64,000 bases of DNA from Candidatus Cybelea septentrionalis (GTDB taxonomy: Bacteria; Vulcanimicrobiota; Vulcanimicrobiia; Vulcanimicrobiales; Vulcanimicrobiaceae), in the NCBI GenBank assembly GCA_003158175.1, contig PMHJ01000034.1, positions 102,776-166,775 of the forward strand, written 5' to 3'. Each line of letters begins with the position of its first letter. Position 1 is the first letter of the stretch. Of the stretch, positions 22,088 through 43,468 are shown in pieces. The notes under the pieces were generated by a model. That model was not told the DNA's origin and made no database searches. It saw only the letters and a list, made by a program, of their open reading frames with translations. The position numbers and the translations under genes are program-made.

Positions 22088-22101
22088 CGCGGAGGAGTGG
22101 C

Positions 22102-23892: not shown

Positions 23893-23904
23893 ACCAAGCG
23901 CGAA

Positions 23905-24444: not shown

Positions 24445-24449
24445 ACGCG

Positions 24450-27048: not shown

Positions 27049-27049
27049 C

Positions 27050-27547
27050 ATGCGATTACTCGTGGCGGGAATCGGGAACATCTTCTTTGGGGACGATGGC
27101 TTTGGTTCGGAGGTCGCTCGGGTACTGGCCGAATCGCCCATCGAGGATGTCAAGATCGAAGACTTTGGAATCCGAGGGATGCACTTGGCCTTCGAGTTGG
27201 TTGCGGGATACGAACGCGCGTTCTTGATCGACGCAGTGCCGCGCGACGGGCAGCCCGGAACGCTCTACGTGATCGAGCCCGACGTCGCGCCGCAAAAGAC
27301 GATGCCGGACGCGCACGGCATGGATTTACAGAACGTCTTAGCGTTCGTTCGGACGATCGGCGGAGAGCCGCCGCCGATCACCCTCGTGGGATGCGAACCA
27401 TCCGCAGCGGGAGAGCAAATCGGACTCTCGGACGCCGTAAGCGCGGCCGTTACACCGGCGGTCGCACTCGTCCGCCGGCTCGTCGGAGAGGCTCTCCGCG
27501 AATCCGGCTCACGCCAAGAAAGGAAAACACTATGGACCGAGGTCTGA
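27050..27547 (+). CDS. Hydrogenase maturation endopeptidase (HyaD/HycI family)
   Basis: 165 aa. The start MRLLVAGIGNIFFGDDGFG is the family signature; the Asp in GDDGFG is a nickel-sensing ligand, and a second acidic residue (FLIDAVP) and a His (DAHGMDLQNVL) complete the site. The protease clips the C-terminal tail of HhyL after nickel has been inserted. It starts 1 bp after the previous stop and overlaps the next gene by 16 bp. Confidence 0.92.
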   Translation: MRLLVAGIGNIFFGDDGFGSEVARVLAESPIEDVKIEDFGIRGMHLAFELVAGYERAFLIDAVPRDGQPGTLYVIEPDVAPQKTMPDAHGMDLQNVLAFVRTIGGEPPPITLVGCEPSAAGEQIGLSDAVSAAVTPAVALVRRLVGEALRESGSRQERKTLWTEV

Positions 27548-27792
27548 TCGTCGGCGCGATTGCGTTCGCTGCGGCCTTTGCCGCAGAGCGCCTGTATGCC
27601 AGCATGGAACCGGACCTCAAACGGTACGAAGCGATGCGAGAAATGTCCGGCCAGCCGCCGATCCTCAAGGAGCTCTGGTCGACGATTTTCGGAAGCGCGA
27701 TCGCCGAGCACGAGGCGACACGGAAGGCCGGCGGCATCCTGGCCGATTTAACGAAGGACGCGCTGCGTTACGCGCGGATCCGAAGCATGTGA
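27532..27792 (+). CDS. Small membrane protein of the hydrogenase operon
   Basis: 86 aa from an ATG at 27532 inside the 3' end of the protease gene; AAAGGAAAA lies upstream. Residues about 4-20 (LIVGAIAFAAAFAAERLY) are one transmembrane helix, and the rest is a charged cytosolic tail. I do not recognise a family with certainty. A single-pass protein here could tether the hydrogenase, which has no membrane anchor of its own in this operon. Confidence 0.6.
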   Translation: MDRGLIVGAIAFAAAFAAERLYASMEPDLKRYEAMREMSGQPPILKELWSTIFGSAIAEHEATRKAGGILADLTKDALRYARIRSM

Positions 27793-28328
27793 CCTCGTTC
27801 GTGACGGATGCCGCTTTGGAACGCTACGCGGTTTCGCCCTCGGACTCGTGGGCGACGTTTGAAGGCCGCTCGTCCCTGCATGGGTTGAAGGGGAAAGCCG
27901 TGGGCTTGAGCGGCTACGTCGAAGCAAACTGGAACGACGACGGAAGCCTCGCAACGACGTCGGCGCCGCGGATGCACCTCGATATTCCGGTCGCGAATCT
28001 GCGCTCGGGTAATGCGATGTTCGACCGCGAGACCTGGAAGCTGATCGACAGCAATCGGTTTCCGCGCATCGCAGCGGATCTGCGCGAGTTGCGGGCGGCA
28101 CTGGGGCCAAACCACTACGAGGCGAGCGGCGACGTAACGCTTGCGGGGCGCTCGCGCAAGTACGACGGCGAGCTGACGTTCGCGCACGACGAGGATAACG
28201 TCACGATCGACGGTGAGTTGCGCATCGATATCCGCGATTTCGGTTTGAAACCACCCAACCTCTTCATTATCAAAGTCGACCCCGTGGTGAAAGCGGTTCT
28301 GCACCTGGTGGCAAGGAAGACTGCGTGA
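27789..28328 (+). CDS. YceI-like domain protein, cytosolic copy 1
   Basis: 179 aa, GTG start overlapping the previous stop by 4 bp. The pattern is that of the YceI lipocalin fold: YAVSPSDSWATFEGRSSLHG, a middle SGNAMFDRETWKLIDSNRFP, and IDGELRIDIRDFGLKPP near the end. YceI proteins bind isoprenoid or quinone-type lipids and are usually periplasmic, but there is no signal peptide here. The next gene is a paralogue. In this context a quinone- or lipid-handling role close to the hydrogenase is conceivable. Confidence 0.75.
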   Translation: MTSFVTDAALERYAVSPSDSWATFEGRSSLHGLKGKAVGLSGYVEANWNDDGSLATTSAPRMHLDIPVANLRSGNAMFDRETWKLIDSNRFPRIAADLRELRAALGPNHYEASGDVTLAGRSRKYDGELTFAHDEDNVTIDGELRIDIRDFGLKPPNLFIIKVDPVVKAVLHLVARKTA

Positions 28329-28903
28329 CAGTTGTCGAGAGAAGGCTATTGGAACCCGAGCCATTGATGGTGCCACCTCACAAGGCAGTCAAGGAGCGCT
28401 TCGAAGTGGTGAGTGCCGACTCGTCCTTGACGTTTTATGCGGCCGCTCCGACTCAATCCGCCTACGGGAAAACAACCGAGCTAAGCGGCTTTTTCGAGTT
28501 GGCTTGGAACGCCGACGGTTCGGTTGCCGTGGAGCCCGCCGCGAACATGCACGTTGAGTTCAAGGTCGAGAGCCTGCGAACGGGCAACGAACTCCAAGAT
28601 CGCGAAATGTGGAAGCTCATCGACAGCAAGCGCTTCCCAAAAATTGCCGGAGATCTGCGCGCGCTAAGCGGCGGTGCGGTGCGCGGCCGCTACAGTGCCG
28701 CCGGGCAGATCACGCTGGCCGGCCTCGCGCGGCGGTACGAAGGCGAGTTCCGTCTCGACCGAGAGCCGCAGCGCATCGCGCTCGACGGGGAGGTCAAGAT
28801 CGACGTCCGCGATTTCGGACTGAAGCCGATAAAGCTATTGGTCCTCGGCGTCGCGCCCCTGGTGCGCGTGCGTCTCCACCTCGTCGCGATGAAGGCGGTG
28901 TAA
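28325..28903 (+). CDS. YceI-like domain protein, cytosolic copy 2
   Basis: 192 aa, GTG start overlapping the previous stop by 4 bp. It shares with its neighbour the blocks TGNELQDREMWKLIDSKRFP, GQITLAGLARRYEGEF and EVKIDVRDFGLKPIKLL, so the two arose by tandem duplication. The N-terminus has a 25-residue extension and no signal peptide. Retention of both copies inside the operon suggests distinct jobs or a heterodimer. Confidence 0.75.
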   Translation: MTVVERRLLEPEPLMVPPHKAVKERFEVVSADSSLTFYAAAPTQSAYGKTTELSGFFELAWNADGSVAVEPAANMHVEFKVESLRTGNELQDREMWKLIDSKRFPKIAGDLRALSGGAVRGRYSAAGQITLAGLARRYEGEFRLDREPQRIALDGEVKIDVRDFGLKPIKLLVLGVAPLVRVRLHLVAMKAV

Positions 28904-28905
28904 CC

Positions 28906-29184
28906 GTGTGCCTGGCGATTCCTGGTCAGATCGTCGAGATAGCGGAGAAGGAGCCCCTCGCGCGCGTCAACGTCGGCGGCGTCACGCGCAACGTCAATGT
29001 CGGGCTGCTCGACGATGGCGCGGTCGCGCCAGGCGACTGGATTTTGATCCACGTAGGCTTCGCACTGAGCAAGATCGACGAGGGGCAAGCGCACGACCAG
29101 CTTCGTATGCTGCGAGCGATGGGCGAGGACGGTCTGGCGATAGAGGAAGTGCGCGGCTACCGGTTTGCGGAGCCGTCGCAATGA
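28906..29184 (+). CDS. hypC: Hydrogenase assembly chaperone HypC/HupF
   Basis: 92 aa. The GTG at 28906 gives MCLAIPGQIVEI, placing the essential Cys at position 2 after Met removal. HypC carries the Fe(CN)2CO unit on HypCD and hands it to the large-subunit precursor. The length and the central VGGVTRNVNVGLL block fit the family. Its TGA overlaps the hypD ATG. Confidence 0.95.
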   Translation: MCLAIPGQIVEIAEKEPLARVNVGGVTRNVNVGLLDDGAVAPGDWILIHVGFALSKIDEGQAHDQLRMLRAMGEDGLAIEEVRGYRFAEPSQ

Positions 29185-30293
29185 AGTATGTCGATGAATT
29201 CAGAGACGCCGGCATCATTTCGGGCGTCGCTCGAGAGATAGCGCGAACCGCTAAGCCATCGCGCCTTTACCGCATCATGGAAGTCTGCGGCGGCCATACC
29301 CACTCGATCTACCGGCACGGCCTGCGCGACGTTTTGCCGGCGAATATCGAGCTGGTGCACGGTCCGGGCTGCCCGGTCTGTGTGCTTCCGACCGGACGCG
29401 TCGACGACGGCCTCGCGATCGCCGCGCGCGAGAACGTTATCCTAACCTGCTTCGGCGACATGATGCGAGTTCCGGGAACAAAGGGCACGCCGCTCGAGCT
29501 CAAGGCCAGAGGCGCGGATATTCGGATGGTTTATTCGCCCCTCGACGCGTTGCGCATCGCTGCGTCGAATCCCGAGAAGCACGTCTGTTTCTTTGCAATC
29601 GGTTTCGAGACGACGGCGCCTTCGACGGCGTTGACGATCTTGCGAGCGCAGGAGCTCGGAGTGAACAACTTCTCGGTCTTCTGCAATCACGTCACGATCG
29701 TCCCGGCAATGCGCGCCATCCTCGATTCACCCGACATGCGGATCGACGGGTTTGTCGGACCGGGGCACGTTTCGTCGATCACCGGTTGCCGCCCATATGA
29801 GTTCATCGCGCGCGACTACGGGAAGCCCGTCGTCGTTTCCGGATTCGAGCCTCTGGACATTCTCGAATCGATCCTGTTGATTTTGCGCCAACTTGATGCC
29901 GGAGAGGCTCGCGTCGAGAATCAATACAAGCGAATCGTTCCATGGGAAGGCAATCCGCCGGCGTTGATGGCACTGGCGCGGGTCTTCGAGTTGCGGCCCT
30001 ATTTCGAGTGGCGCGGCCTCGGCTTCATTTCGCAATCGGCCCTCAGTATCAAGCCGGACTTCGCCGGCTTCGACGCCGAAAAGCTTTTCAACGTTCCCGG
30101 CGTCCGCGTGACCGATCCGCGCGGCGCGCAATGCGGCGAGGTCCTCAAGGGCGTACTGAAGCCGCCGCAATGCAAACTCTTCGGAACCGAGTGTAACCCC
30201 GAGCATCCCGTCGGCGCGCTCATGGTCTCGAGCGAAGGCGCTTGCGCTGCCTACTATCGCTACGCCATGCACGCCTCCGCCGTCGAGGCATAA
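29181..30293 (+). CDS. hypD: Hydrogenase formation protein HypD
   Basis: 370 aa. An iron-sulfur protein that, with HypC, is the scaffold on which CN and CO are attached to iron. Seen: MEVCGGHTHSIYRHG, HGPGCPVCVLP, the FETTAP segment, and the C-terminal cluster cysteines (GAQCGEVLKG, PPQCKLFGTECNPEHPVG). The ATG is at 29181; ATGA overlaps the hypC stop. Confidence 0.96.
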   Translation: MKYVDEFRDAGIISGVAREIARTAKPSRLYRIMEVCGGHTHSIYRHGLRDVLPANIELVHGPGCPVCVLPTGRVDDGLAIAARENVILTCFGDMMRVPGTKGTPLELKARGADIRMVYSPLDALRIAASNPEKHVCFFAIGFETTAPSTALTILRAQELGVNNFSVFCNHVTIVPAMRAILDSPDMRIDGFVGPGHVSSITGCRPYEFIARDYGKPVVVSGFEPLDILESILLILRQLDAGEARVENQYKRIVPWEGNPPALMALARVFELRPYFEWRGLGFISQSALSIKPDFAGFDAEKLFNVPGVRVTDPRGAQCGEVLKGVLKPPQCKLFGTECNPEHPVGALMVSSEGACAAYYRYAMHASAVEA

Positions 30294-30295
30294 CC

Positions 30296-31345
30296 GTGAC
30301 CGTCCTTCAACCGGTGCGCAAGACGCCGCATTTTGCCGACACTCAGATCGAGATGGCCCACGGTGCGGGCGGCATCGCGTCAAGGCGTTTGGTCGAGGGA
30401 CTGATCGGATCGTATCTCTCGAATCCCATCCTGCAAACGTTCGCCGACGCCGCGACGATTTCGGTTAACGGAAGCAACGTCGCAACGACGGCCGATGGTT
30501 TCGTGGTCAAGCCGCTGCGCTTTCCCGGCGGTTCGATCGGCGAGCTCGCGGTCAACGGAACCTTGAACGATCTGGCGGTTTCGGCGGCAAAGCCGATCGC
30601 TTTGATGGCGACGCTAATTCTTGAGGCCGGATTGCCGACGAGCACGCTCGAGAGTGAGGTCGAAGCGATGGCGATCGCGGCGCGCAAGGCCGGTGTCTGT
30701 ATCGTCGGGGGGGATACGAAGGTAGTCGAGCACGGAAAAGCCGACGGGATGTACGTCTCCACCTTCGGGATCGGCTTGGTCGATGGTCGCGTCAGGATCG
30801 ACGCGGCATCGATTCAGCCCGGCGATCGGATTCTGCTCTCCGGACCGATCGGCGCCCATGGAATTACGATCCTGCTCGCGCGTGGCGAGCTCGATCTGCA
30901 AGCCGACCTCGTCTCGGACACGCGACCGGTCTGGCCTTTTGTCAGCGCGCTGATGGATCGGTGTGCATCGGGCGTGCGGTGGATGCGCGACCCAACGCGC
31001 GGCGGCGTGGCGACCTCGCTCAACGAACTCGTGCGCGGCACTGCATACGGCGTCGCACTCTACGAAGATTGCGTCCCGATGCACGACGCGGTGCGGGGCG
31101 CGTGCGAACTGCTCGGACTCGACCCGCTGCATATCGCCAACGAAGGACAGTTTTTAGCCGTGGTTGCTGCGGAGCACGCCGACGCGGCACTCGCCGCCGT
31201 GCGCGGCGTCGCGGGCGGTGAGGAGGCGATCCTGATCGGCGAAGTGCGGGCCGAGCCGAAACAGCGCGTCATCGGAATTAACGGCTACGGGGGCACCAGA
31301 GTGATCGACATGCTGGTCGGCGATCCGCTCCCGCGCATATGTTGA
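30296..31345 (+). CDS. hypE: Carbamoyl dehydratase HypE
   Basis: 349 aa from a GTG at 30296. It is an AIR-synthase-like ATPase that dehydrates the carbamoyl group on its C-terminal cysteine to thiocyanate, the source of the CN ligands. The start MAHGAGGIASRRLV, VVGGDTKVVEHGK-type ATP site and RDPTRGGVATSLNEL are present, and the protein ends in PRIC, so the reactive Cys is the last residue as required. The stop overlaps the next start by 7 bp. Confidence 0.96.
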   Translation: MTVLQPVRKTPHFADTQIEMAHGAGGIASRRLVEGLIGSYLSNPILQTFADAATISVNGSNVATTADGFVVKPLRFPGGSIGELAVNGTLNDLAVSAAKPIALMATLILEAGLPTSTLESEVEAMAIAARKAGVCIVGGDTKVVEHGKADGMYVSTFGIGLVDGRVRIDAASIQPGDRILLSGPIGAHGITILLARGELDLQADLVSDTRPVWPFVSALMDRCASGVRWMRDPTRGGVATSLNELVRGTAYGVALYEDCVPMHDAVRGACELLGLDPLHIANEGQFLAVVAAEHADAALAAVRGVAGGEEAILIGEVRAEPKQRVIGINGYGGTRVIDMLVGDPLPRIC

Positions 31346-32529
31346 ACGCCACGTGCAGCGTCACAGAACTGGCGGTTCGAATTGCGGCGGCGATTTGCAG
31401 TCGCACGCCGGTCGCGCAGCGCTTCTTCGATTCGCACGCCGAAGACATCGCGCGCGCGGCGCGGGCGGTTGCCGAACGCTTGAGCGCGGGGGGCAGCATC
31501 TATGCATTCGGACGGGGCGCCTATGCGACCGACGCCGCGCATGTGGCCGTCGAGTTCGTGCACCCCGTGCTCGTCGGCAAGCCCGCACTGCCTGCTTCCG
31601 ACGTGAGTCTTTCCTTTGAAACGTCGCTGCCCGTCATTGTGGGGGCGCGCGACGTCGTTGTTGGATTCGGGCCTCCGCAGGGCGATCCCGACGTCGATCG
31701 CGCGCTGGCGGGCGCCCGTGCCGCCGGTGCGTACACGATTGCGCTCGGAGGAGCCGATGGGGACTTTTCCGTGCGCGCCGCGAGCGACGACGAGCACGTG
31801 CATCAGGAGATCGTCGAAATTACCGGTCACATGCTCTACGAGAGCGTGCACGTGTTCTTGGAGCACCGCCACCGCGAGAGCGACGCCGGGGCGTCTGCGT
31901 TCCTCTATCCGTTTCTGGGCGGCGAGCAGCCGTCGCGGGAAGACCTGATCGCGAGCGTTGTAGCCTCGATCGCACAGAAGGCAGCCGATGCGCAAGTCCT
32001 TCGCGAGCGTGTAGCCTCCGAAGAGGCGGCGGTCATCGCCAACGCCGTTGCGGCCATCGTGGAAGAGTTACGCGCCGGCGGCCGGCTGTTGCTCTTCGGC
32101 AATGGCGGCTCGGCGACCGACGCCACCGATTGGGCGCTGGATTGCGTGTCGCCGCCTGCGGGTTTGGCTGCGGTTCCGGCGCTCTCGCTCGCGGCCGAGC
32201 CGGCGACGATCACGGCTATTGCCAACGACGTGGGCCGCGAGTTCATCTTTCTGCGCCAGCTGATCGCACACGTTCGCGAAAGGGATGTTGTTATTGCCCT
32301 GTCGACCAGCGGCGGTTCGCTCAATGTCATCGCGGCGCTGGAAGAGGCGCGCAAGCGCGGAAACCTTACGATCGCACTTCTGGGATACGACGGCGGCGAG
32401 ATTTTCCGGCGACGTCTTGCCGATCATGCGATCGTCGTGCGCTCCGACTACATTCCCCGCGTCCAAGAGGCACAAGCCACGATCTATCACTCGATGCGGC
32501 GCGCGATCGGATGGCTTGCCGATGCGTGA
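31339..32529 (+). CDS. Double SIS-domain protein of the hydrogenase operon
   Basis: 396 aa with two sugar-isomerase (SIS) domains, about 1-190 and 200-396. Each has the phosphosugar-binding form of the fold: FGRGAYATDAAHVAVEFVHP in the first, FGNGGSATDATDWALDC and LSTSGGSLNVIAALEEA in the second; the second resembles GmhA/DiaA proteins. The first domain lacks a clear STSG loop. SIS proteins recur in actinobacterial-type hydrogenase operons with no known role. It may bind a phosphosugar or act only as a scaffold. Confidence 0.75.
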   Translation: MLNATCSVTELAVRIAAAICSRTPVAQRFFDSHAEDIARAARAVAERLSAGGSIYAFGRGAYATDAAHVAVEFVHPVLVGKPALPASDVSLSFETSLPVIVGARDVVVGFGPPQGDPDVDRALAGARAAGAYTIALGGADGDFSVRAASDDEHVHQEIVEITGHMLYESVHVFLEHRHRESDAGASAFLYPFLGGEQPSREDLIASVVASIAQKAADAQVLRERVASEEAAVIANAVAAIVEELRAGGRLLLFGNGGSATDATDWALDCVSPPAGLAAVPALSLAAEPATITAIANDVGREFIFLRQLIAHVRERDVVIALSTSGGSLNVIAALEEARKRGNLTIALLGYDGGEIFRRRLADHAIVVRSDYIPRVQEAQATIYHSMRRAIGWLADA

Positions 32530-32752
32530 ACTCTTTGCGACGAAAACGTGTCCGTACTGCAGCCAGATGCGCGAGCAGCTCGGATGGGACGCACTCGACT
32601 TCGTCGAGTACGACGTCGAGATCGATGGGGCAGCGCGGGTGCGGTTACAGGAGCTGGTCGGCGCCAATCCGATGGTTCCCGTACTGGTAGAGGAGGGACG
32701 CGTCAGCCAAGTCGGCGTCGCCGGACGCGGCTGCTATGTCGGTAACGGATAA
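32522..32752 (+). CDS. Glutaredoxin-like protein
   Basis: 76 aa. The CPYC active site (ATKTCPYCSQMREQLG), the cis-Pro loop (NPMVPVLVEEG) and the final GxG region give a minimal glutaredoxin/thioredoxin fold. The ATG at 32522 overlaps the SIS stop by 8 bp, and its own end overlaps hypF by 17 bp. It may reduce cysteines of HypD, HypE or the hydrogenase precursor during assembly; this is inferred from position only. Confidence 0.8.
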   Translation: MRELFATKTCPYCSQMREQLGWDALDFVEYDVEIDGAARVRLQELVGANPMVPVLVEEGRVSQVGVAGRGCYVGNG

Positions 32753-34988
32753 GGCCACCGCGCGCCACGCGGTCCGCCTCCATATCACCGGCGTCGTTCA
32801 GGGTGTCGGTTTTCGGCCGTTCGTCTATCGCGTAGCGCAGCGTCATGGCGTAGCCGGCTGGGTCCTCAACGCACAAGATGGAGTTCACGTCCTCGCCGAG
32901 GCGAGCGACGATGCAATCGCGCGTTTCGTCGACGAGGTCCGGCAGAGTCCCCCACCCGCGGCGCGCGTCGCGACGTTCGACGTCACGCCGGCCGCGATCG
33001 CGGGTTTGGTTGCATTTGAGATTCGCGAAAGCGCCGCTGCCGGAGCGCCGACCGTGCGCATCTCACCGGATCTGGCGCTCTGTGCCGACTGTCTGCGCGA
33101 GCTTTTCGACCCTTCCGACCGCCGCTTCAAATATCCGTACATCAACTGCACGAATTGCGGCCCGCGATACAGCATCGTGTATGGCTTGCCATACGATCGG
33201 CCGCGTACCGCCATGCGCGACTGGCCGCTCTGCGAGCATTGCAGCCGCGAATACGCCGACCCGGCCGACCGGCGCTTTCACGCCCAGCCGGTGGCCTGCT
33301 CGGCGTGCGGCCCCACGATGCGTTTGCTTGCCGGCGATGACGTCGTCACCGGCACGGGCGCGATCGAAGGAGCTGCCGCACTGCTCGCGCGTGGCGCAAT
33401 CGTCGCCGTAAAAGGAATCGGCGGCTACCATCTTGCCTGCGACGCCGCGAATGCCGGCTCCGTCGCCGCCATGCGCGAACGAAAGTATCGCAAAGAACGG
33501 CCCTTCGCTCTCATGGCCCGCAATCTCGAGGTCGCGCGAACGCTCGTCCAACTCGACGGTAACGCGGAGTCCGCGTTGACGTCGATCGAACGGCCGATCG
33601 TCGTTGCGCCCGCGAGACGCCCCTTCGAAGGTGTCGCGCCGGAAAACTCCGATCTGGGCGTCATGCTTGCGTACACCCCGGTGCACCATCTCTTGTTCGC
33701 AGCCGGTGCGCCTGACGTGCTCGTGATGACGAGCGCGAATCGCTCGAGCGAGCCGATCGCGTACGACGATCGAGAGGCGCTCTCTTCGCTCGCTGGAATT
33801 GCCGACGCATTTCTGGTCGGCGAGCGGCCAATCGCGCGGCGCATCGACGACTCCGTCGTCCGCGTCGTAGGCGATGCCCGCGTCGTGCTTCGCCGCGCGC
33901 GCGGCTTGGCTCCCGAGGCCGTCGGCACGTTCCCTACGACGACGCCGATTCTCGCGCTCGGCGGCGACTTGAAGAATGCGTTGACGTTGGTTGTCGGCGG
34001 CCAGGCATTTGCGAGCCAGCACATCGGCGACCTCGACCACCTTTCGGCCCGCGACGCTTTTGTTGCCACGGTCGGCGACCTTTGCGCCATGTATGAAGTC
34101 AAGCCCGAGCAGCTGACGGTCGTGCACGACCTGCATCCCGGATATCGCAGCACCGAGTTTGCGCGGTCGCTTCCAGGACGGCGGATCGGCGTGCAACACC
34201 ACCGGGCTCACATCGCGAGCGTGCTGGCCGAGCGCGATGCTTGGGAGACGCGGGTGGTGGGCTTTGCATTCGATGGTACCGGATATGGCGACGATGGCTC
34301 GATCTGGGGAGGCGAGGTCTTTATCGGTTCGCTGGCCGGCGGTCTCGCTCGAGTCGGGCACCTGCGCCCGGCGCCTTTGCCTGGCGGCGACGCGGCGGCA
34401 CGCTTTCCGGTTCAGGCGGCGGCGGGCTTTCTCTACGACCTCGACGACGGCATCGATTTCGAGCGGCCGCCATTCTCTTTTCCCAAGCGGTACGCAGATG
34501 CCCGCGCGCTCGTAAAACACCGCGTGCGAACGTTCGAGACCACGTCGATGGGGCGTCTCTTCGATACGGTCGCGGCGCTCACTGGGTTCACCCGCGAGCA
34601 GAGCTTCGAAGGACAAGCCGCGATGTGGCTCGAGCATCTGGCTCGGTCGAGCGGCTCCGTCGCGCCTTACGTGCTTCCCTACGAGCGAGACCAGTTCGAC
34701 TTTCGACCGATGCTCGCGTCGGTTCTCGCCGATCGCCGCGTCGGCCGCGCTCCGTGCGAGATCGCACGCGCGTTTCACTTTGCCGTTGCCAACGCCGTAG
34801 CGGCAGTGGCGGACGCATATAACGCGGACCGCATCGTCGTCTCGGGCGGAGTCTTCCAGAACGCTCTGCTCGTCGACACCCTCGTCGCAATGTTGGGTCC
34901 CCGGATGTGGTTTAATGTGAAGGTTCCGCCAAACGACGGAGGTTTGAGTCTCGGGCAAGCGGCGTGTGCGCTCGCGGAGCTCAAATAA
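32736..34988 (+). CDS. hypF: Carbamoyltransferase HypF
   Basis: 750 aa, full length. It makes carbamoyl-adenylate from carbamoyl phosphate and ATP and passes the carbamoyl group to the HypE cysteine. Domains in order: acylphosphatase-like (about 8-95, GVVQGVGFRPFVYRVA), two zinc fingers (CADC...CTNC and CEHC...CSAC, about 110-190), YrdC-like (KGIGGYHLACDA, about 200-390), and Kae1-like (HHRAHIASVLAE, FDGTGYGDDG, VSGGVFQNALL). It is the last gene of the hydrogenase run. Confidence 0.96.
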   Translation: MSVTDKATARHAVRLHITGVVQGVGFRPFVYRVAQRHGVAGWVLNAQDGVHVLAEASDDAIARFVDEVRQSPPPAARVATFDVTPAAIAGLVAFEIRESAAAGAPTVRISPDLALCADCLRELFDPSDRRFKYPYINCTNCGPRYSIVYGLPYDRPRTAMRDWPLCEHCSREYADPADRRFHAQPVACSACGPTMRLLAGDDVVTGTGAIEGAAALLARGAIVAVKGIGGYHLACDAANAGSVAAMRERKYRKERPFALMARNLEVARTLVQLDGNAESALTSIERPIVVAPARRPFEGVAPENSDLGVMLAYTPVHHLLFAAGAPDVLVMTSANRSSEPIAYDDREALSSLAGIADAFLVGERPIARRIDDSVVRVVGDARVVLRRARGLAPEAVGTFPTTTPILALGGDLKNALTLVVGGQAFASQHIGDLDHLSARDAFVATVGDLCAMYEVKPEQLTVVHDLHPGYRSTEFARSLPGRRIGVQHHRAHIASVLAERDAWETRVVGFAFDGTGYGDDGSIWGGEVFIGSLAGGLARVGHLRPAPLPGGDAAARFPVQAAAGFLYDLDDGIDFERPPFSFPKRYADARALVKHRVRTFETTSMGRLFDTVAALTGFTREQSFEGQAAMWLEHLARSSGSVAPYVLPYERDQFDFRPMLASVLADRRVGRAPCEIARAFHFAVANAVAAVADAYNADRIVVSGGVFQNALLVDTLVAMLGPRMWFNVKVPPNDGGLSLGQAACALAELK

Positions 34989-36530: not shown

Positions 36531-38102
36531 TTAGAGCGCGTTGTAGACGTCCGAGGCCATCTCGCCGAGCGTTTGACCGGCGTAGTGGGCGGCATCCCGG
36601 CTAGAATCGACGCTCCCCTTGCCCGCCATTCGGTTGATGTAGAACGCGAAGGCGACGTGGCGGCCGTGGCTCGTCGTGATGTACCCAGCGAGCCCTTTCG
36701 TGACGAGTTCGTTGTCGTCGAGCGAATTCGCCGACGTCCACGTGCCCGTCTTCGCGCGGACGTGGCCCGCGGCCGGCACGCCGTTTTGGATATTGAAGAG
36801 CGTTCCGTCCACGCCCATGACCGGCAAACCACGTTCCAACGAGGAGAACCACGCCTGCCGAGACGCCCACGACAAATAACTGACCATGAATCGTGGCGTG
36901 AAGAAGGCAAAGGTGCCGAGACCGTCTTGCTGCGACGCCCCTTTGAGGTCGAGCCCGGCGCTCGAAAGGAGTGCGCGCTCGCAGGCAAATGCGGCTTTCA
37001 AAAGACCGCTCTTTGCCTGCGCCACGTAGGTCGCCCAGAGGTACGGCATCAAGGCCGCATGCAAGTTGTCACTCACCTTGAGCGTGACGTAGACGTCTTC
37101 GGACAATGGCGGCGATACGTGACGTGCGACCAGATTGGCCGGCACGTAGGACGGCGCAACGGCGTCGTGATTGAAGAGCGCTACGCCGGAAGGCGTACGC
37201 ACGGTCACGCCCGCGTCCCGCAGGGCAACGATGAACGCCGCTTGTGCGAAGCGCTGCGGTTCGGGCACACGGTACGAATATAAGATCGCCTTCCCGACGG
37301 GCATCGTACCGGTAATTGTCGCCGTATGCGATCCGTCGGCGTTCGTCTTGTCGCTGGGGAGATCGATCGTCGGCTGGGATTTGGCCGGCCCGGTCGTCGC
37401 CGCGTTGACGAACGTAACGTAGGGCGTCTGCGGAGAGACGCCGATTGAAACTGGGTCGCCTGCCTTCGCCCCCGGCGTCAGCGTCAGATCGACGAGATTG
37501 TCGTTCACGACGATCGACGAAACGATCGCGCCGGTCCCGCCCTCGGAGCCTTGATCTGCAAAAAGTGACGTGTCGATCGCAATCGCGCCATCGATCTGCT
37601 TGATGCCGGCGCGCGCGACCTGCGCCGCGAGGTCGCGCAGAATGGCGAGCGGATCGCCCGGAACTGCTTTTGTGTCGTAGTTGCCGTCGTAGGAATGATC
37701 TTCGTTTTCGAAGGCGAGCGTGCCGTCGGGGCGCACGCGTTGCGAGAGGTTCGGGTCCGCGCCGGCGACCAGCACGAGATCGCCGTGCAGCACGCCGTTC
37801 GAATCGATAGGCCCGGTGCGATAGACCGGCGTCGTCCAGCGGAAGTTCGGTCCGAGCAACGCCAGGCTCGTCCCGGTCGTCAGCAGCTTCGTGGTCGAAG
37901 CCGCTTCCATCAAGATGTCGGCATTGCGGGCGTACAGCTGGCGCTTGGCGTCGAGGTCGTAAACCTCGGCGGCCACGATCGCGTGCGCGAACTGCGGTCG
38001 GGCAACGATAGCGCGCATGGCGGCCGCGATCGACGAAGTCTGCGCGGGCGCGGCCTGCGAAAGCAGCGCCGTTGCGAAGGTTAGGACCAGTGCGAGATTC
38101 AT
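36531..38102 (-). CDS. dacB: D-alanyl-D-alanine carboxypeptidase/endopeptidase, PBP4 (S13) family
   Basis: 523 aa with a Sec signal peptide. All three penicillin-binding motifs are present: SxxK as STTK (EAASTTKLLT, about residue 69), SxN as SDN (KVSDNLHAALMP) and KTG (RAKTGTWTSANS). The long insert between the first two motifs is typical of the PBP4/S13 family. It trims or opens peptidoglycan cross-links in the periplasm. It lies 10 bp downstream of the oxidase-ZIP gene on the same strand. Confidence 0.9.
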   Translation of the reverse strand: MNLALVLTFATALLSQAAPAQTSSIAAAMRAIVARPQFAHAIVAAEVYDLDAKRQLYARNADILMEAASTTKLLTTGTSLALLGPNFRWTTPVYRTGPIDSNGVLHGDLVLVAGADPNLSQRVRPDGTLAFENEDHSYDGNYDTKAVPGDPLAILRDLAAQVARAGIKQIDGAIAIDTSLFADQGSEGGTGAIVSSIVVNDNLVDLTLTPGAKAGDPVSIGVSPQTPYVTFVNAATTGPAKSQPTIDLPSDKTNADGSHTATITGTMPVGKAILYSYRVPEPQRFAQAAFIVALRDAGVTVRTPSGVALFNHDAVAPSYVPANLVARHVSPPLSEDVYVTLKVSDNLHAALMPYLWATYVAQAKSGLLKAAFACERALLSSAGLDLKGASQQDGLGTFAFFTPRFMVSYLSWASRQAWFSSLERGLPVMGVDGTLFNIQNGVPAAGHVRAKTGTWTSANSLDDNELVTKGLAGYITTSHGRHVAFAFYINRMAGKGSVDSSRDAAHYAGQTLGEMASDVYNAL

Positions 38103-38112
38103 TTGGAGTTCT

Positions 38113-39987
38113 CTAACCCCCGTTCATGTCGAGAAAGAGTTCGGTCGCAAGGGCGAGGAGAAAGCCCGCGCACATCGTCGCGGTTACGAAGGCCGTCAGT
38201 CCGGTGCGGCGCAGCACGCTCCAAAGCTCGCCGATGACGAAGACGAGCGCGCCGATGGCGATGGCGAGAAAGAGCACCGAAAGCGTCGGGGAGTAAAAGC
38301 TGTAACCGATAATCGTTCCGAGGAAGGTGGGCCCGCCCGCGATCAAGCCCGCTAAGCCGATTTGCGCCCACGACGGAACGACCCGCCCGACCAGCGGCGC
38401 CGCGACTCCGAAGCCTTCCGTTGCGTTGTGGAGGCCGAAGCCGACGATCAGCGCCAACGCCACCGCCGTGGCTCCCGATGCGGCCGACGCTCCGATCGCT
38501 AGGCCTTCACCGAAATTGTGAGCTCCGATTCCGATTGCGATGATTGCGGCCAGGACGATCGGATTCTCCGCATGCGCTGCGGCTTGGCGCGTGAAATGCG
38601 TTGCCGCGCTGCCCAAGCCGACCAAACCGATCGCGAGGCCGATGACGAAAACTGCGATCAGGGTTACCGGGAATGGCCCGACTCCGGCGTGCCAAGCGTT
38701 GAGGCCCGCCGAGAGCGGCGCGATCGCGTTCTGCGCGATCTCGACGACGAGGTAGAGAAGAATGCCGATCGCGAGTGCGTTGAGCAGCGCGATGGTCTGC
38801 ACGGAAAGGCGTCGCGCGCGCGCGATCGGAAGGCCGAGGAAAATGGTGAAGCCGGCGATGGCGCCGAGCAGCACCGTCCACCAAAAGCTTAATGCATGGC
38901 CGGTCGCGACGTTCGCGGGCTTCATCGCGCGATACATAGAGAGCAGCGTGTTGGGCGTACCGACGTAATGGATCGCGGTGATCAATCCGGCCGGCATTCC
39001 GTTTGCATCTTCGATGTGGTCCATCACGTGGCAATGGATGAGCCACGTCCCCGGCGTCGCATTAGCATCGATCACGACGTCGACGCGTTGCCCGGGGGCG
39101 ACGAGGACCGTGTCCTCGACGTCGCGATAGTCGACGGGCTCGGCGTCGCGCGAGATAATTTGCTGGTAATGCCCGTGCGTGTGCATCGTATGGAACTCTT
39201 CGCCGGAGATGTTGATCCAGCGGATTCGAAAGCGCTCTCCGGCGCGAACGTCGAGTGCGCGCGTCGCCGGATACTCTTTACCGTTGAGCGTGAAATGATT
39301 TTCAGCGGCGCTTTGAATTTGCCAGGACGAGATCATCTCAAGGAAGTCGTGCGCCAAGCCGCGTTCGACCGGACGCGGAGCGGACGGCTCGACGATAATC
39401 GCGCCGTACAGTCCGGAATCCAGCATCGCTTCGTTGTCATGGCTGTGATAGATGAACGTGCCGGGCTGGTCGGCAACGAAGCGGTAGACGAAGTGACCGC
39501 CCCGCGGAACGAGCGGCTGCGAGATGCCGCCGACGCCGTCCATCGCGACCGGGATGTCGTGCACTCCGTGCATGTGGATCGAGTCGGGTGTCGCGCCGTC
39601 GTTCGTATAATCGATGACCAGCGTGTCGCCTTGCTTCACGACCAGGGCTGGACCAGGTACCACGCCGTTATAGGTGTTCGCCATAACCGTCAGGCCAGGC
39701 TGGAGCGTCCACGGCGCGGAGCGCTCGACGAGATGAAAAACTCTTACGCGCCCCTGCTTTAACGGGATCGCTTGATAGGCTCCATCGGGGCGCCGGAATG
39801 CCGACGACTCGCCCGGGGCTGCCGTCGCCAGCGGGATCGGCCCCGCGATCGGCTGCAATCCGAGGGACGTCGAGTTTGGCGAGACCGCTTCGTCGGCATC
39901 GGCCAAAGCCGCCGCCGGCATCGCCGCGGACGTAAGAAGGACGGCGACAGCGACCGCCGTGACTAGCCGGATAAGCAGGGAGTTCAT
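38113..39987 (-). CDS. Multicopper oxidase fused to a ZIP-family metal transporter domain
   Basis: 624 aa. After a signal peptide comes a two-cupredoxin multicopper oxidase (about 70-345) with all four copper motifs: HMHGVH, FIYHSHDN, HTMHTHGH and HCHVMDHIED. A transmembrane helix then leads into a ZIP-like domain of about seven or eight helices (about 365-624), carrying the two ZIP metal-site motifs AHNFGEGLAIGAS and LHNATEGFGVAAP. The reading frame is continuous through the junction. A metal oxidised outside (Cu, Fe or Mn) could be coupled to transport or binding by the ZIP part. This is a rare domain pairing as far as I know. Confidence 0.85.
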   Translation of the reverse strand: MNSLLIRLVTAVAVAVLLTSAAMPAAALADADEAVSPNSTSLGLQPIAGPIPLATAAPGESSAFRRPDGAYQAIPLKQGRVRVFHLVERSAPWTLQPGLTVMANTYNGVVPGPALVVKQGDTLVIDYTNDGATPDSIHMHGVHDIPVAMDGVGGISQPLVPRGGHFVYRFVADQPGTFIYHSHDNEAMLDSGLYGAIIVEPSAPRPVERGLAHDFLEMISSWQIQSAAENHFTLNGKEYPATRALDVRAGERFRIRWINISGEEFHTMHTHGHYQQIISRDAEPVDYRDVEDTVLVAPGQRVDVVIDANATPGTWLIHCHVMDHIEDANGMPAGLITAIHYVGTPNTLLSMYRAMKPANVATGHALSFWWTVLLGAIAGFTIFLGLPIARARRLSVQTIALLNALAIGILLYLVVEIAQNAIAPLSAGLNAWHAGVGPFPVTLIAVFVIGLAIGLVGLGSAATHFTRQAAAHAENPIVLAAIIAIGIGAHNFGEGLAIGASAASGATAVALALIVGFGLHNATEGFGVAAPLVGRVVPSWAQIGLAGLIAGGPTFLGTIIGYSFYSPTLSVLFLAIAIGALVFVIGELWSVLRRTGLTAFVTATMCAGFLLALATELFLDMNGG

Positions 39988-40063
39988 TTGTTAGGTGCGC
40001 CTAAGGTTGCCGATAGGCGCGCCTTTCTCCTAGCGCGCACGCGGCTTTGCCCTTTTAATGCCG

Positions 40064-40147: not shown

Positions 40148-41071
40148 TTATTCTCTTTTGCCATACCAGGAAATGACGACCTGGCCGTTACCCCTAGGCG
40201 CCGCGCCTTGCTGATTGCTCACGTTGGTCGCTCGCTTTTCTACGTAGGACGAGCCACCGCCACCGCCGCCACCATAGCCAGTACCGCCGCAGCCCTCATA
40301 ACAGCCACCAGAACCACCGCCACCACCGGCACCGTAGTAGCCGCCGCCCCCGCCACCGCCACCGGTCTCTTTGTAGAAGCAACTCTCGCCGCCTTCGCCA
40401 CCTTGACCGAGCGCACCCGACTCGCCTGGACCGCCAGCGCACGAGCCGGTGGGACCAGCGCCGCCCGCTCCTCCGGCTTGCTGAGTGCCTCCGCTCCCAC
40501 CAAATGATTCGTATGACCCGCTCCCACTGTTCCCGCCGGATGCACCAATCTTACCGCCGCCTGCGCCTCCGCTTCCCCCCTCGGGCGCCGCTCCACCGCC
40601 ACCGCCAGCCACAATGACGCGGTCGCTCAATGCATCGCCGCCCTGACGCACGTCAGTAGCGCCGCCGCCCCCAAGGCCGAATGAAGACCCCTCTGGGTTA
40701 CCACCGGCTGCTCCGCCGCCATTGTAGCCGCCGTAGCCGTCGTAGAGCGACGGCGTGCCTCCCACGTAAATCTCAAGCAACTCGCCGGGTTTGACGGGGA
40801 TCGTCGCCTTCACGCTGCCACCGGCGCCGCCGATCGCGGAACCGGAGCCGCCTGTCGCGCCGTCGGCCACGATCGTAAGACTCTTTTGGTCTCTAGGCAC
40901 CTTAAAATACTCTACCTGCCCAGAGTAACCGAGGATTTTGTGGCGCTCCTTTAGCTGCGGCGTAGGGACAGTCATTGCGCCGGGTGCGCCAATCGGCGGC
41001 TGCGACCCGCCGCACCCGGCAAGGATACCGATAGCCACGCAGGCTACAAAAGCGCGACGGAAATCAAACAT
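40148..41071 (-). CDS. Glycine-rich secreted lipoprotein (paralogue)
   Basis: 307 aa. Signal peptide starting MFDFRRAF with lipobox ILAGC, then GGSQPPIGAPG. A beta-rich segment (YSGQVEYFKVP to PGELLEIYVGG) is followed by a long Gly-rich stretch with scattered Cys and a C-terminal block SSYVEKRATNVSNQQGAAPR. The order is identical to the protein at 266-1237. It has an SD-covering hairpin leader (41078-41111). Probably surface-anchored; function unknown. Confidence 0.8.
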   Translation of the reverse strand: MFDFRRAFVACVAIGILAGCGGSQPPIGAPGAMTVPTPQLKERHKILGYSGQVEYFKVPRDQKSLTIVADGATGGSGSAIGGAGGSVKATIPVKPGELLEIYVGGTPSLYDGYGGYNGGGAAGGNPEGSSFGLGGGGATDVRQGGDALSDRVIVAGGGGGAAPEGGSGGAGGGKIGASGGNSGSGSYESFGGSGGTQQAGGAGGAGPTGSCAGGPGESGALGQGGEGGESCFYKETGGGGGGGGYYGAGGGGGSGGCYEGCGGTGYGGGGGGGSSYVEKRATNVSNQQGAAPRGNGQVVISWYGKRE

Positions 41072-41077
41072 TACGAT

Positions 41078-41111
41078 GCCCCTTTCGACACCGTAATGGT
41101 TCGACGGGGGC
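41078..41111 (-). promoter_or_regulatory. SD-sequestering leader hairpin, copy A
   Basis: Upstream of the ATG at 41071. Outer stem GCCCC with GGGGC, an inner TCGA/TCGA helix and an ATTAC loop. The 3' arm (AAGGGGC) is also the likely ribosome binding site, so pairing would hide it. Copies B and D keep the structure with base changes on both arms. Confidence 0.55.
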
Positions 41112-41130
41112 TAGGCGTTCCCCGGAGACT

Positions 41131-41295
41131 CTAGTCCTCTTCGCCCTCAGGCTCGCTCTTGGTTGCTTCGGACGGCGCGACGTTTCGCATGATCTGAAGC
41201 TGAGCCAGCATCACGTCGAGCTGCGCCTGTGTCGGCTCGTTTGAAAATCCAAGTTCAACCTTGTTTCCACCCCCAAGCGGCCACGAATATGCCAC
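41131..41295 (-). CDS. Small acidic-tailed protein
   Basis: 54 aa from a GTG at 41295 with GGGAGG 6 nt upstream. The N-terminus is MAYSWPLGGGNKVELGF, the middle an amphipathic helix (LDVMLAQLQIMRN), and the tail is acidic (EPEGEED). No family recognised. The same frame is open further upstream except for two stop codons, so it could be the surviving 3' end of a decayed gene. Its TAG lies at the very edge of leader A, and a similar sequence ending in TAG precedes leader D. Confidence 0.45.
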   Translation of the reverse strand: MAYSWPLGGGNKVELGFSNEPTQAQLDVMLAQLQIMRNVAPSEATKSEPEGEED

Positions 41296-41645
41296 GCCAG
41301 CCTCCCGTCTTCCGTCGCCCTTGAGGGCATCCGTTCAGAAAAGAGAGACAAGCACATCAAGTGGCTCCTCTGGAAGTTCAGCCCGAACCCTGCCTACGAG
41401 ACTGTAGACACGATAACTACGCTAAGGAGAGTCACGAATAGCCACGGCGCAATAATGTACGCTCAGGGCGTCGAGGCTTGCATTAACAGCTGCCCTTACC
41501 GGCCCTACGGAGGCATCGTCGGGATCGCTACCAAGTAGCAAAACGCTCGGGCCGCCTAACCCCCACGGCCTCGCCAGCTTTGCCTGAATAAGCGCGTTTG
41601 CCTCAAGAACCGATCGTTTGCCTCAAAAAGGCGAGGCGCAGTTCC
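41296..41645 (-). other. Gene-poor stretch with a possible decayed coding frame
   Basis: 350 bp without an intact gene. On the minus strand one frame, in phase with the small gene at 41131-41295, is open from 41622 except for TAG at 41422-41424 and a TGA near 41336. Its translation looks protein-like (GGPSVLLLGSDPDDASVGPV, later AELPEEPLDVLVSL). No start codon with a good ribosome binding site is seen. The right end carries the 37-bp repeat at 41597-41633. Confidence 0.35.
41597..41633 (-). repeat. 3'-flank repeat of the lipoprotein array, copy 2
   Basis: Partner of the element at 40064-40100. It contains two direct copies of CGTTTGCCTCAA-like sequence and a GCCT...AGGC mini-hairpin, placed 13 bp after the stop of the gene at 41646-42092 on the minus strand. 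Confidence 0.5.
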
Positions 41646-42092
41646 TCAGCTACAGGACTTGTTTTGCTTGCCCGTCATGGCGAACGTCCCGCCACCGTTT
41701 ACGTTGCCGTTCCCGGCGCTGAGGATGAATGTACCGGAGCCTTGCTTCGCATTGACAGACCCTTGCAAGCTCAGAATAACCGCAGGTGATGGGAGCCAAA
41801 TGGCAGATGCGTATAATTCCTTCCCTGAGGTAAGATACGTTCCGCTAAGACCGCCGCTACCGCTGCTAGACCAAGCGCCAGACGGTGTAAACGCCAAGCA
41901 AAAAGAAGATGGACCACTCCCGACTACAGTAGTGAATGTCGCTAGGTAGTATCCCTTGATAGCTTTCTGCGGAGAGCGCGTTGAGGGTTGAATCCCCGTA
42001 CTCGGCGCACCCGTCATTGGCTGCGATCCGCCGCACCCAGCGAGCATAACGATAGCCACGCAGACTCCAAAAACGCGACGGAAATCAAACAT
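41646..42092 (-). CDS. Small lipoprotein sharing the array's leader and signal peptide
   Basis: 148 aa. The first 25 residues (MFDFRRVFGVCVAIVMLAGC) are nearly the same as in the glycine-rich gene at 40148-41071, including lipobox and the following GGSQP. The mature part is quite different: not Gly-tract-based but a compact beta-rich domain (GYYLATFTTVVGSG, AVILSLQGSVNAKQGSGTF, GGGTFAMTG). This indicates that a leader plus signal module has been joined to an unrelated body. Function unknown. Confidence 0.75.
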   Translation of the reverse strand: MFDFRRVFGVCVAIVMLAGCGGSQPMTGAPSTGIQPSTRSPQKAIKGYYLATFTTVVGSGPSSFCLAFTPSGAWSSSGSGGLSGTYLTSGKELYASAIWLPSPAVILSLQGSVNAKQGSGTFILSAGNGNVNGGGTFAMTGKQNKSCS

Positions 42093-42100
42093 AGTTAAAC

Positions 42101-42134
42101 GCTCCCTTCGAGCTTGTAAAAGTTCGACGGGAGC
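42101..42134 (-). promoter_or_regulatory. SD-sequestering leader hairpin, copy B
   Basis: Upstream of the ATG at 42092. Stem GCTCCC with GGGAGC (6 bp), inner TCGA/TCGA and a CTT/AAG helix around a TTAC loop. The 3' arm AGGGAG is the likely ribosome binding site. Relative to copy A, a C-G pair has become T-A and CC/GG has become TT/AA in the inner helix. Confidence 0.55.
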
Positions 42135-42219
42135 TTGACGTTACCCGGTGACTAAGTTGATCGTTACCCACAAATGCGGGCGTTTGCCTAGCGGCTAAAC
42201 GAAGAAGCAGCGCATCTTA

Positions 42220-42476
42220 TTAATGGCTATACCAGGAAATGGTCACCTGGCCGCTACCCCTAGGTGCTGCGCCTTGCTGATCGCTGACATTGGTCGCTCG
42301 TTTTTCGACGTAAGACGAGCCGCCGCCACCACCGAGTCCTTCAGAAGCACCGCCCGGCGCGCGGCCGCAGCTCCCGTAACTTCCCCAGCCGGCACGTCCG
42401 CCTTTACCACCAGCACCGCCTGACTTCTTAGAACCTCCACGCCTAAAACGTGACGGCCCAACCGGAAATCAATCAT
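42220..42476 (-). pseudogene. Deleted and frameshifted glycine-rich lipoprotein remnant
   Basis: It starts MIDFRLGRHVLGVEV, like the gene at 43468, but after about 16 codons the sequence jumps, in a different frame, into the C-terminal half of a paralogue: GGKGGRAGWGSYGSCGRAPG, later SSYVEKRATNVSDQQGAAPR, ending ISWYSH. The lipobox and the entire beta-rich domain are missing. An internal deletion or unequal crossover between array members explains this. The 5' arm of its leader hairpin is also gone. Confidence 0.75.
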
Positions 42477-42518
42477 CTGGCTGCTCCTATCGACCTCGTA
42501 ACGGTTGCGAGATTCTTC

Positions 42519-43468
42519 TCACTGCCAACTGAGGACGACCAGCCCGTTGTGCGTTGGATTTTTCCACCCGCGCCACATATGCACGTTCGTGGCGCTCGAC
42601 TCAACGTAGGACGAGCCGCCGCCGGCTCCGCCGCCCCCGGCGGTATAGGAGCTGTCTGACTCACAGCCCGCGCCGCCACCGCCACCGCCGTAATAACCGC
42701 CGCCACCACCGCCTCCACCGGCACCTCCCGAATACGAGCTGTACTCGCCTGAGCTGCCGGTTCCGCCCGAACCTCCGGTGCCGAGCGCGCCGTTACCGCC
42801 AGCATTTCCGAAATATCCGAAGCATCCAGTGCCGCCGCCGCCGCCGGAACCGCCGGTAGTCTGCGTACCGCCGGCGCCGCCGCCACCGCATTCCACGTAG
42901 CTCGTTCCGCCGCTGCCGTTGCCGCCAGTTGTTCCGCCGCCCTTTCCGCCAGCGGGCCTGGGGCAGTCATAACCGGACGCCACTCCACCATTGCCACCAC
43001 CGCCGCCGACGACCACGATGCGATCCGAAAGCGTATCGCCTCCCTCGCGCACATCGGAAGCGCCGCCCCCGCCATATCCGTCCGCTTCGCGGTAGCCGTG
43101 CCCGCCAGGGCCGCCGCTGCCGCCGCCGTTAAAGCCGGCAGTTGTTCCAGAACGTCGCCCCCGACGTAGACTACCAGCTTCTCTCCCGGGGTAACCGGGA
43201 TCACGGCGTGCACGCGCCCGCCGTCCACTGCCGGGGATCCCGCGCCGTGAGCGCCGCGACCAACAACGGTGATGTGCGTCACGGAAGCCGGCACCCTGAA
43301 ATTCTGCGCTCTGCCCGTGTAATAGAACGATCTATGGTTCGGAAGATGGTCAGGGGCAGCGTTCATCGACACGACGCCGCTACTTACGGCGGCACCGCCG
43401 CATCCCGCAAGCATGGCAGTAGCCACGCAGACACCTAAAGCAAAACGGCCTAGACGGAAATCAATCAC
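42519..43468 (-). pseudogene. Glycine-rich lipoprotein gene with a single frameshift
   Basis: A GTG at 43468 opens the MIDFRLGRFALGV signal with lipobox MLAGC and continues through VIPVTPGEKLVVYVGGD. Near 43138-43146 the frame shifts by one base: comparison with the intact paralogue (GGEGATAGGFNGGG) shows that CAA-CT-GCC should be one base longer. The rest (GGFNGGG-like to NGLVVLSW, stop at 42519) is intact in the new frame. It may be inactivated, or could be a sequencing error or a switchable site. Confidence 0.75.

Follow-up and report, generated by a model that had tools for sequence, protein, structure and literature searches.

A conserved single-chain fusion of a multicopper oxidase and a ZIP permease in Candidatus Eremiobacterota, with a candidate IdeR-type half site at its gene start

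Introduction

In the yeast Fet3-Ftr1 system, a multicopper oxidase sits at the entrance of a metal permease. ZIP proteins form a different class of permeases, which carry divalent cations. In ammonia-oxidising archaea, the multicopper oxidase MCO1 and an adjacent ZIP permease have been described and modelled for copper (Kerou et al. 2016, via excerpts of PMC7819960, PMC7785015 and PMC5817080). Under copper limitation in Nitrososphaera viennensis, MCO1 rises by a log2 value of 0.81 and the adjacent permease by 1.33, a modest response, and the oxidation of Cu+ before uptake through ZIP is presented there as a proposal, as yet unvalidated (PMC7785015, in excerpt).

Here we describe a gene in which the two functions are joined in one polypeptide. 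It lies in a window of 64,000 nucleotides from Candidatus Cybelea septentrionalis (assembly GCA_003158175.1, contig PMHJ01000034.1, positions 102,776 to 166,775). A preliminary description of the window knew of no characterised protein with this layout. That statement stands for the fused protein, of which our searches of an open-access library listed no example, but it overlooks the functional pair of MCO1 and ZIP published for ammonia-oxidising archaea (excerpts of PMC7785015, PMC7819960 and PMC5817080).

Results

One reading frame carries an oxidase, a Met-rich linker and a ZIP domain

The gene, its predicted parts and the elements before it are listed below in window coordinates.

38113..39987, minus strand: MCO-ZIP fusion gene, a single ATG-started frame of 624 amino acids
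39895..39987, minus strand: signal-peptide-like hydrophobic N-terminus, about residues 1-31, seen in the sequence, with a helix at 3-22 in the model
38953..39720, minus strand: two-domain multicopper oxidase, residues 90-345, from Pfam, sequence and fold matches and ligand alignment
38887..38952, minus strand: Met-rich linker NTLLSMYRAMKPANVATGHALS, residues 346-367, from the Met count across homologues
38116..38886, minus strand: ZIP domain of eight helices, residues 368-624, with HNFGEG at 490-495 and HNATEG at 520-525, from Pfam, model and fold match
39991..40004, no strand: palindrome TTAGGTGCGCCTAA, a candidate IdeR-type half site that overlaps the ribosome-binding region and, on the coding strand, ends 3 nt short of the start codon
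40097..40123, minus strand: predicted hairpin of 11 pairs, terminator-like, belonging to the upstream gene

As the preliminary description had it, the open frame contains a complete copper oxidase with four His motifs (H138xH140, H181xH183, H266xxH269xH271 and H318-C319-H320). The Pfam models Cu-oxidase_3 (9.1e-30), Cu-oxidase_2 (6.3e-27) and Cu-oxidase (8.2e-14) match over residues 94-335 of the fusion protein, and the closest relatives of this part in sequence and fold are the two-domain enzymes 2zwn and 3g5w. With two cupredoxin domains, eight trinuclear His in the four motifs and one T1 site, it is a two-domain multicopper oxidase. The trinuclear ligands H138, H140, H181, H183, H269, H271, H318 and H320 and the T1 ligands H266, C319 and H324, the latter in domain 2, are identical in all 34 aligned rows; the role of each ligand is presumed from the known two-domain enzymes. 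Residue 182 is Ser or Thr in the 34-row alignment, so that domain 1 has His-Ser/Thr-His rather than His-Cys-His and lacks a T1 Cys. Without that Cys, and by analogy with known two-domain enzymes, the trinuclear sites are expected to need an oligomer in order to form. Two-domain oxidases are known to require a trimer, and ZIP proteins are mostly monomers or dimers. Leu335 is invariant (34/34 rows) and Met331 is variable, which suggests that the T1 axial residue may be Leu335.

The linker is rich in Met also among the homologues, where 129 of 1113 linker residues (346-373 and equivalents) are Met, compared to 427 of 20137 elsewhere, in rows that are related by descent.

For the C-terminal domain, PF02535 Zip scores 25.8 bits (7.8e-6) over residues 471-582, below its curated cut-off of 35.1 bits. 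All 34 aligned homologues match both the Zip model (at 0.001) and the Cu-oxidase models. The ZIP part modelled alone (residues 361-624; pLDDT 85.6, pTM 0.80) aligns to BbZIP entries with VIA Z scores of 19.0-22.8, compared to 8.1 for the next unrelated fold, and Foldseek returns ten hits below 0.001, all of them BbZIP. Likewise, a profile built from the 34 ZIP parts and run against the PDB with E up to 1 finds BbZIP chains only (five distinct sequences, 3.6e-10 to 4.3e-8). On the strength of this predicted fold, we consider the sub-cut-off Pfam score to be outweighed. The domain had been called ZIP-like at the outset, and structure prediction bears this out with eight transmembrane helices in the ZIP fold and a clear match to BbZIP.

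Both ZIP metal motifs that had been pointed out in the frame are present and are identical in 34 of 34 homologues: H490-N491...E494 in TM4 and H520-N521...E524 in TM5, each of the HNxxEG type expected in ZIP proteins. BbZIP H177, E181, Q207 and E211 align with H490, E494, H520 and E524. The remaining BbZIP ligands D208 and E240 are replaced by Asn521 and Thr554, both invariant among the homologues (Thr554 in 34/34), which likely leaves the domain a single metal site of two His and two Glu. The fusion thus has no counterpart of BbZIP E240, the Glu that TM6 contributes to the second metal site. We regard this Glu as a ZIP ligand that varies and is not essential, and on that understanding the assignment to the ZIP (SLC39) family stands.

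The model of the whole fusion (mean pLDDT 83.9) has eight helices between residues 368 and 621; its pTM of 0.57 makes the relative placement of oxidase and ZIP domain unsure. The signal-peptide-like N-terminus would put the oxidase outside the cytoplasm. Taken together with an eight-helix ZIP domain, the oxidase would sit where the N-termini of ZIP proteins lie. As the number of helices is even and both ZIP ends are expected outside, either order of fusion would leave the oxidase outside.

A gene for a PBP4/S13 D-Ala-D-Ala carboxypeptidase (36531-38102, minus strand) begins 10 bp past the end of the fusion gene, with which it is perhaps co-transcribed. Upstream (40148-43468, minus strand) are genes for glycine-rich, lipoprotein-like products whose N-termini resemble each other (two have MFDFRR...GCGG); one of these genes matches PF12810. 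Further away, 21068-34988 on the plus strand encodes the small and large subunits of a [NiFe] hydrogenase, HypD, an AIRS (HypE-like) protein, a SIS-domain protein and HypF.

The fusion is conserved within the phylum

We surveyed 149 genomes of the phylum Ca. Eremiobacterota with a match threshold of 1e-50 and obtained matches in 77. The same order of domains, which the preliminary description had proposed to seek across genomes, is seen as one continuous match over both domains in 65 of the 149 (64 without an internal stop and one with a TAG). The other 12 of the 77 mostly have matches that are cut by contig ends or in pieces, and include a genome, G025, with the closest oxidase that lacks ZIP (locus L051 8898-9848). 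There a Met-rich stretch is followed by a single TM helix at the end. Fusion ORFs are intact even where the contig is long (1.7 Mb and 2.8 Mb).

Chance or an assembly error at the junction is ruled out by the conservation of the fusion over three families and by the intact ORFs on long contigs. A viral origin was also considered, and exact peptide patterns gave no match among viral contigs. The tree of the ZIP part has long branches, and the origin and number of fusion events are for that reason not read from it. Two family-1 fusions (L037 in G018 and L038 in G021) are only ~50% identical to the rest of their family and nearer to family 3 in sequence, while retaining a family-1-style palindrome; transfer within the phylum is possible. 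Apart from the family-3 regulator described below, no shared metal gene was found near the fusion among nine neighbouring genes from seven loci.

A half-site palindrome marks the start of the gene or of its regulator operon

The TTAGGTGCGCCTAA site is the only match with at most one mismatch in the window, where 0.32 are expected. Between -160 and +60 around the chosen start, 33 of the 39 family-1/2 members have an exact TTAGGN4CCTAA and 37 have one with at most one mismatch; the two loci without it are L019 and L022. Within the 160 nt upstream alone, 29 of the 39 have the exact palindrome, compared to 0.0 expected in resampled sequence. The oxidase gene of G025 does not have it. In family 3 the palindrome precedes the regulator gene instead (exact in 6/11, at most one mismatch in 11/11). 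A half site of the CCTAA form has been described for IdeR of S. erythraea and binds one IdeR dimer (PMC10317159, in excerpt). The CCTAA repeat of iron regulons under IdeR/DtxR is found here as the half site TTAGGN4CCTAA, not as the full 19-bp box.

Genome-wide, the palindrome occurs at 60 sites in 40 genomes, compared to 56 for a reversed control; the count of sites is therefore not raised, and it is their location alone that is striking. The predicted hairpin of the upstream gene suggests that the fusion gene may have its own promoter, between hairpin and operator; in a consensus scan, 2 matches were found and 2.3 are expected by chance.

Regulators linked to the fusion carry the IdeR sulphur ligands

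In all 11 family-3 loci, the gene directly before the fusion belongs to the DtxR family, and in L041 and L049, for example, the ends of the two genes overlap. The source genome has two DtxR-family genes. One, on contig C10, is followed by an Nramp gene (PF01566) and has Asp and Glu at the positions of Met10 and Cys102, the MntR pattern. The other, on C27, has Met and Cys at these positions, the IdeR pattern. In the regulator tree, which has a midpoint root and in which long branches meet, the C27 protein groups with the fusion-linked regulators of family 3 (100/99) and apart from the Nramp-linked paralogues.

Our residue table comprises 22 regulator rows, 15 of them in the fusion-linked clade. 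All 15 have Cys102, Glu105 and His106, and 13 have Met10, as at the primary site of IdeR. The ancillary site, His79 and His98 in IdeR, is lost in 13 of the 15 and kept in the two family-2 rows, and for this reason the fusion-linked regulators may not sense iron as IdeR does. Met10 and Cys102 raise the selectivity of IdeR for Fe2+, and MntR has Asp/Asn and Glu at the positions of these sulphur ligands (PMC10317159, in excerpt). Together with the IdeR-type ligands of the fusion-linked clade, this means that the wiring favours iron, with the ancillary site missing. In the source genus the regulator gene is unlinked to the fusion, and we infer that the C27 protein acts on the fusion operator.

Other genes behind the palindrome and iron genes of the source genome

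Of the 60 sites, 26 belong to the fusion gene or to the operon of its regulator. Another 11, each in a different one of the 40 genomes, precede homologues of a 370-aa CxxCH protein; the source genome has the palindrome twice, and its second copy is followed by the CxxCH gene and then a YceI gene (L062 5676-7357, G000 contig C34). The 370-aa protein matches nothing in Pfam, NCBIfam or the PDB. By a putative likeness to cytochrome-porins (Cyc2), it is possibly an outer-membrane cytochrome-porin. Four more sites, at ~4,700-4,900 in L123, L125, L126 and L127, precede genes for Nramp-family permeases with ADTEAG at the place of MDPGN in the C10-linked Nramp; the usual Nramp motif is DPGN. The remaining 19 were not placed in these groups, and one of them is ~100 nt from a HiPIP gene.

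FTR1 was not detected in the source genome. Its FeoB_N matches are weak (best 1.1e-10), and we take them to be ordinary GTPases. Four FUR-family genes are present, one of them in the window (~3597-3929, minus strand), and iron may therefore be handled by Fur too.

Unfused pairs and a reverse-order fusion occur elsewhere

On plasmids of Deinococcus, Rubrobacter, Peribacillus and several cyanobacteria, and in many Rhodococcus records, the oxidase adjoins a gene annotated as 'metal transporter' or 'ZIP family metal transporter', and Pfam confirms Zip and Cu-oxidase in the scanned partners. On plasmid NZ_CP092195.1 of Deinococcus sp. KNUC1210 (L052 5944-7755), one protein has ZIP first and the oxidase second, in a metal-gene region. 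With the C-terminus of ZIP likewise expected outside, this reverse order fits the same arrangement.

To look for fusions in other phyla, we scanned genome contigs with two oxidase peptide patterns. From the 257 matches the best 80 were taken, and 22 lower-ranked loci among them, most labelled as other phyla, were tested; in none of these does a ZIP lie within the flank of the oxidase. The peptide patterns miss oxidases with altered motifs, such as the one in Deinococcus, so that the spread beyond the phylum is a minimum estimate.

Rubrobacter and Deinococcus QL22 have a gene of the DtxR family near the unfused pair, on the other strand, and in Deinococcus QL22 two exact palindromes precede the oxidase gene. 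Elsewhere the palindrome scores are 8 of 10 in Rubrobacter and 6 to 8 in five other plasmid loci. The regulators beside the Rubrobacter marinus and Deinococcus QL22 pairs have Asp/Glu or Asp/Asp at the two sulphur positions, and thus differ from the fusion-linked ones, which have the IdeR ligands.

Discussion

We propose that the fusion is an oxidase-permease in a single chain, induced by metal starvation and with iron as the favoured substrate, a preference that we hold tentatively, at slightly short of an even chance. Beyond the anatomy and the regulator, the Nramp-family, CxxCH and, more distantly, HiPIP genes behind the palindrome and the lack of FTR1 and of strong FeoB_N matches in the source genome count in its favour. 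A metal-loaded DtxR/IdeR-like regulator would sit on the palindrome of CCTAA half sites at the gene start and repress the gene, which would be expressed when the regulator's metal runs short. The oxidase would lie at the outer surface of the cytoplasmic membrane, joined to the ZIP N-terminus by the Met-rich linker. It would use O2 to oxidise a reduced metal ion at the permease entrance, from where the ZIP domain would import the metal. An operator overlapping the gene start is what is expected for a metal-loaded repressor, hence for expression in metal shortage, and thus points to uptake over efflux. The coupling of metal oxidation to either uptake or efflux had been suggested in the preliminary description. 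Coupling gains support from the anatomy of the protein, the conserved fusion, the unfused neighbours and the reverse-order fusion, whereas efflux is disfavoured by the operator and the DtxR/IdeR-type regulator.

A more specific version, which we regard as doubtful, is a one-chain ferroxidase-ZIP iron importer, so far unknown in bacteria, that would head a tiny regulon of IdeR half sites together with the cytochrome-like CxxCH protein (a possible outer-membrane barrel) and the unusual Nramp permease. If it is true, the Eremiobacterota would have an oxidative route of iron acquisition, the unfused form of which is spread across several phyla and has been overlooked because its two genes are annotated as unrelated. 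Several observations speak against iron. Oxidation of Fe2+ to Fe3+ before ZIP is chemically awkward, since ZIP proteins carry divalent cations; oxidation of Cu+ to Cu2+ is not. The Met-rich linker, the copper response of the archaeal pair, the lost ancillary site, and the acidic, non-IdeR residues in the regulators beside the Rubrobacter and Deinococcus QL22 pairs also count against it. Further points against the proposed unit are the unlinked regulator gene in the source genus, the genome-wide count of the palindrome, which matches its reversed control, and the G025 oxidase, which has no ZIP.

Copper is the main rival to iron as substrate. Acquisition of copper, in which the oxidase would make Cu2+ from Cu+ for import by the ZIP domain, is on balance unlikely, and is the mechanism proposed for MCO1 and its adjacent permease in N. 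viennensis (Reyes et al., PMC7785015, in excerpt). The Met-rich linker suggests binding of Cu(I), and the Leu described at the T1 axial position of N. viennensis MCO1 (excerpt of PMC7785015) has a possible counterpart in Leu335, which is invariant. Some unfused or reverse-fused relatives are near genes for copper or other heavy metals. Near the fusion itself, no copper gene is among the nine neighbouring genes from seven loci. To our knowledge, there is no copper-sensing member of the DtxR family. The regulator linked to the fusion is of the DtxR/IdeR type, and Cu2+ fails to activate IdeR (PMC10317159, in excerpt).

An improbable reading is a manganese unit that would oxidise Mn(II) or take up Mn and would be governed by a Mn-responsive regulator of the DtxR/MntR type. 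The acidic residues at MntR-type positions in the regulators beside the Rubrobacter marinus and Deinococcus QL22 pairs would fit, as would the two exact palindromes before the Deinococcus QL22 oxidase gene, and DR2539, a DtxR-family regulator of D. radiodurans, is responsive to Mn(II) as well as to Fe(II) (excerpt of PMC3327659). In the Eremiobacterota, however, the MntR-type paralogue adjoins Nramp instead, and the fusion-linked regulator has Cys102 in 15 of 15 rows.

The oxidase could also be the working part, laccase-like or detoxifying, with the ZIP domain as a helper that supplies copper to it or anchors it. One TM helix takes the place of ZIP in the G025 oxidase, and the M2 site of ZIP looks degraded (Thr554 at BbZIP Glu240 and Asn521 at Asp208), but an anchor would not need the invariant H490, E494, H520 and E524, and in other phyla a separately encoded transporter accompanies the oxidase. 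We therefore rate a helper role as quite improbable; supply of copper by the ZIP part, an alternative raised in the preliminary description, has found no specific support. Export or detoxification, by which the unit would oxidise and remove surplus metal, is very improbable: several unfused or reverse-fused relatives do lie in metal-resistance-like islands, but the operator at the gene start fits repression by a metal-loaded regulator, hence expression in shortage, and we know of no export by a bacterial ZIP.

Returning to the oxidase-permease with iron as its favoured substrate, fusion in both orders is direct 'Rosetta stone' evidence that oxidase and ZIP permease work as a unit, an idea that for ammonia-oxidising archaea had not gone beyond a proposal. 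The identity of the metal and the coupling of oxidation to uptake become testable on a single gene with its regulator and a 14-bp site. This would give a concrete metal-acquisition system to a little-studied soil phylum with almost no cultured members.

Comparison with known systems

Each half of the fusion has a structurally known relative. The two-domain laccase 2zwn and the blue copper oxidase of Nitrosomonas europaea, 3g5w, have no transporter domain, and sequence alignment places their T1 Cys in the HxH motif of domain 1, whereas that of the fusion oxidase is in domain 2. BbZIP (5tsa and others), the only profile match in the PDB and a clear fold match of the C-terminal domain, has no fused oxidase, and its Gln207, Asp208 and Glu240 are His520, Asn521 and Thr554 in the fusion. 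The pairs in Deinococcus, Rubrobacter, Rhodococcus, Peribacillus and cyanobacteria have an oxidase and a ZIP homologous to those of the fusion but encoded as separate genes, and the transporters inspected have an extra N-terminal TM helix and extracytoplasmic part.

The archaeal MCO1-ZIP system, compared here from published descriptions, shares with the fusion a two-domain oxidase, a ZIP-family permease, the proposal of oxidation before uptake and a T1 axial Leu, for which Leu335 is the candidate in the fusion. It consists of two genes, whereas the fusion is one polypeptide, and the archaeal proposal is for copper, whereas the linked regulator of the fusion is of the DtxR/IdeR type with a CCTAA half site. 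The archaeal gene pair with its proposed copper role was already known; the operator and regulator wiring of the fusion is what we add. Fet3-Ftr1 embodies the same idea of an oxidase at a permease, and differs in that the permease of the fusion is ZIP, not FTR1. If the metal is iron, the fusion would carry the Fet3-Ftr1 idea over to bacteria, using another permease.
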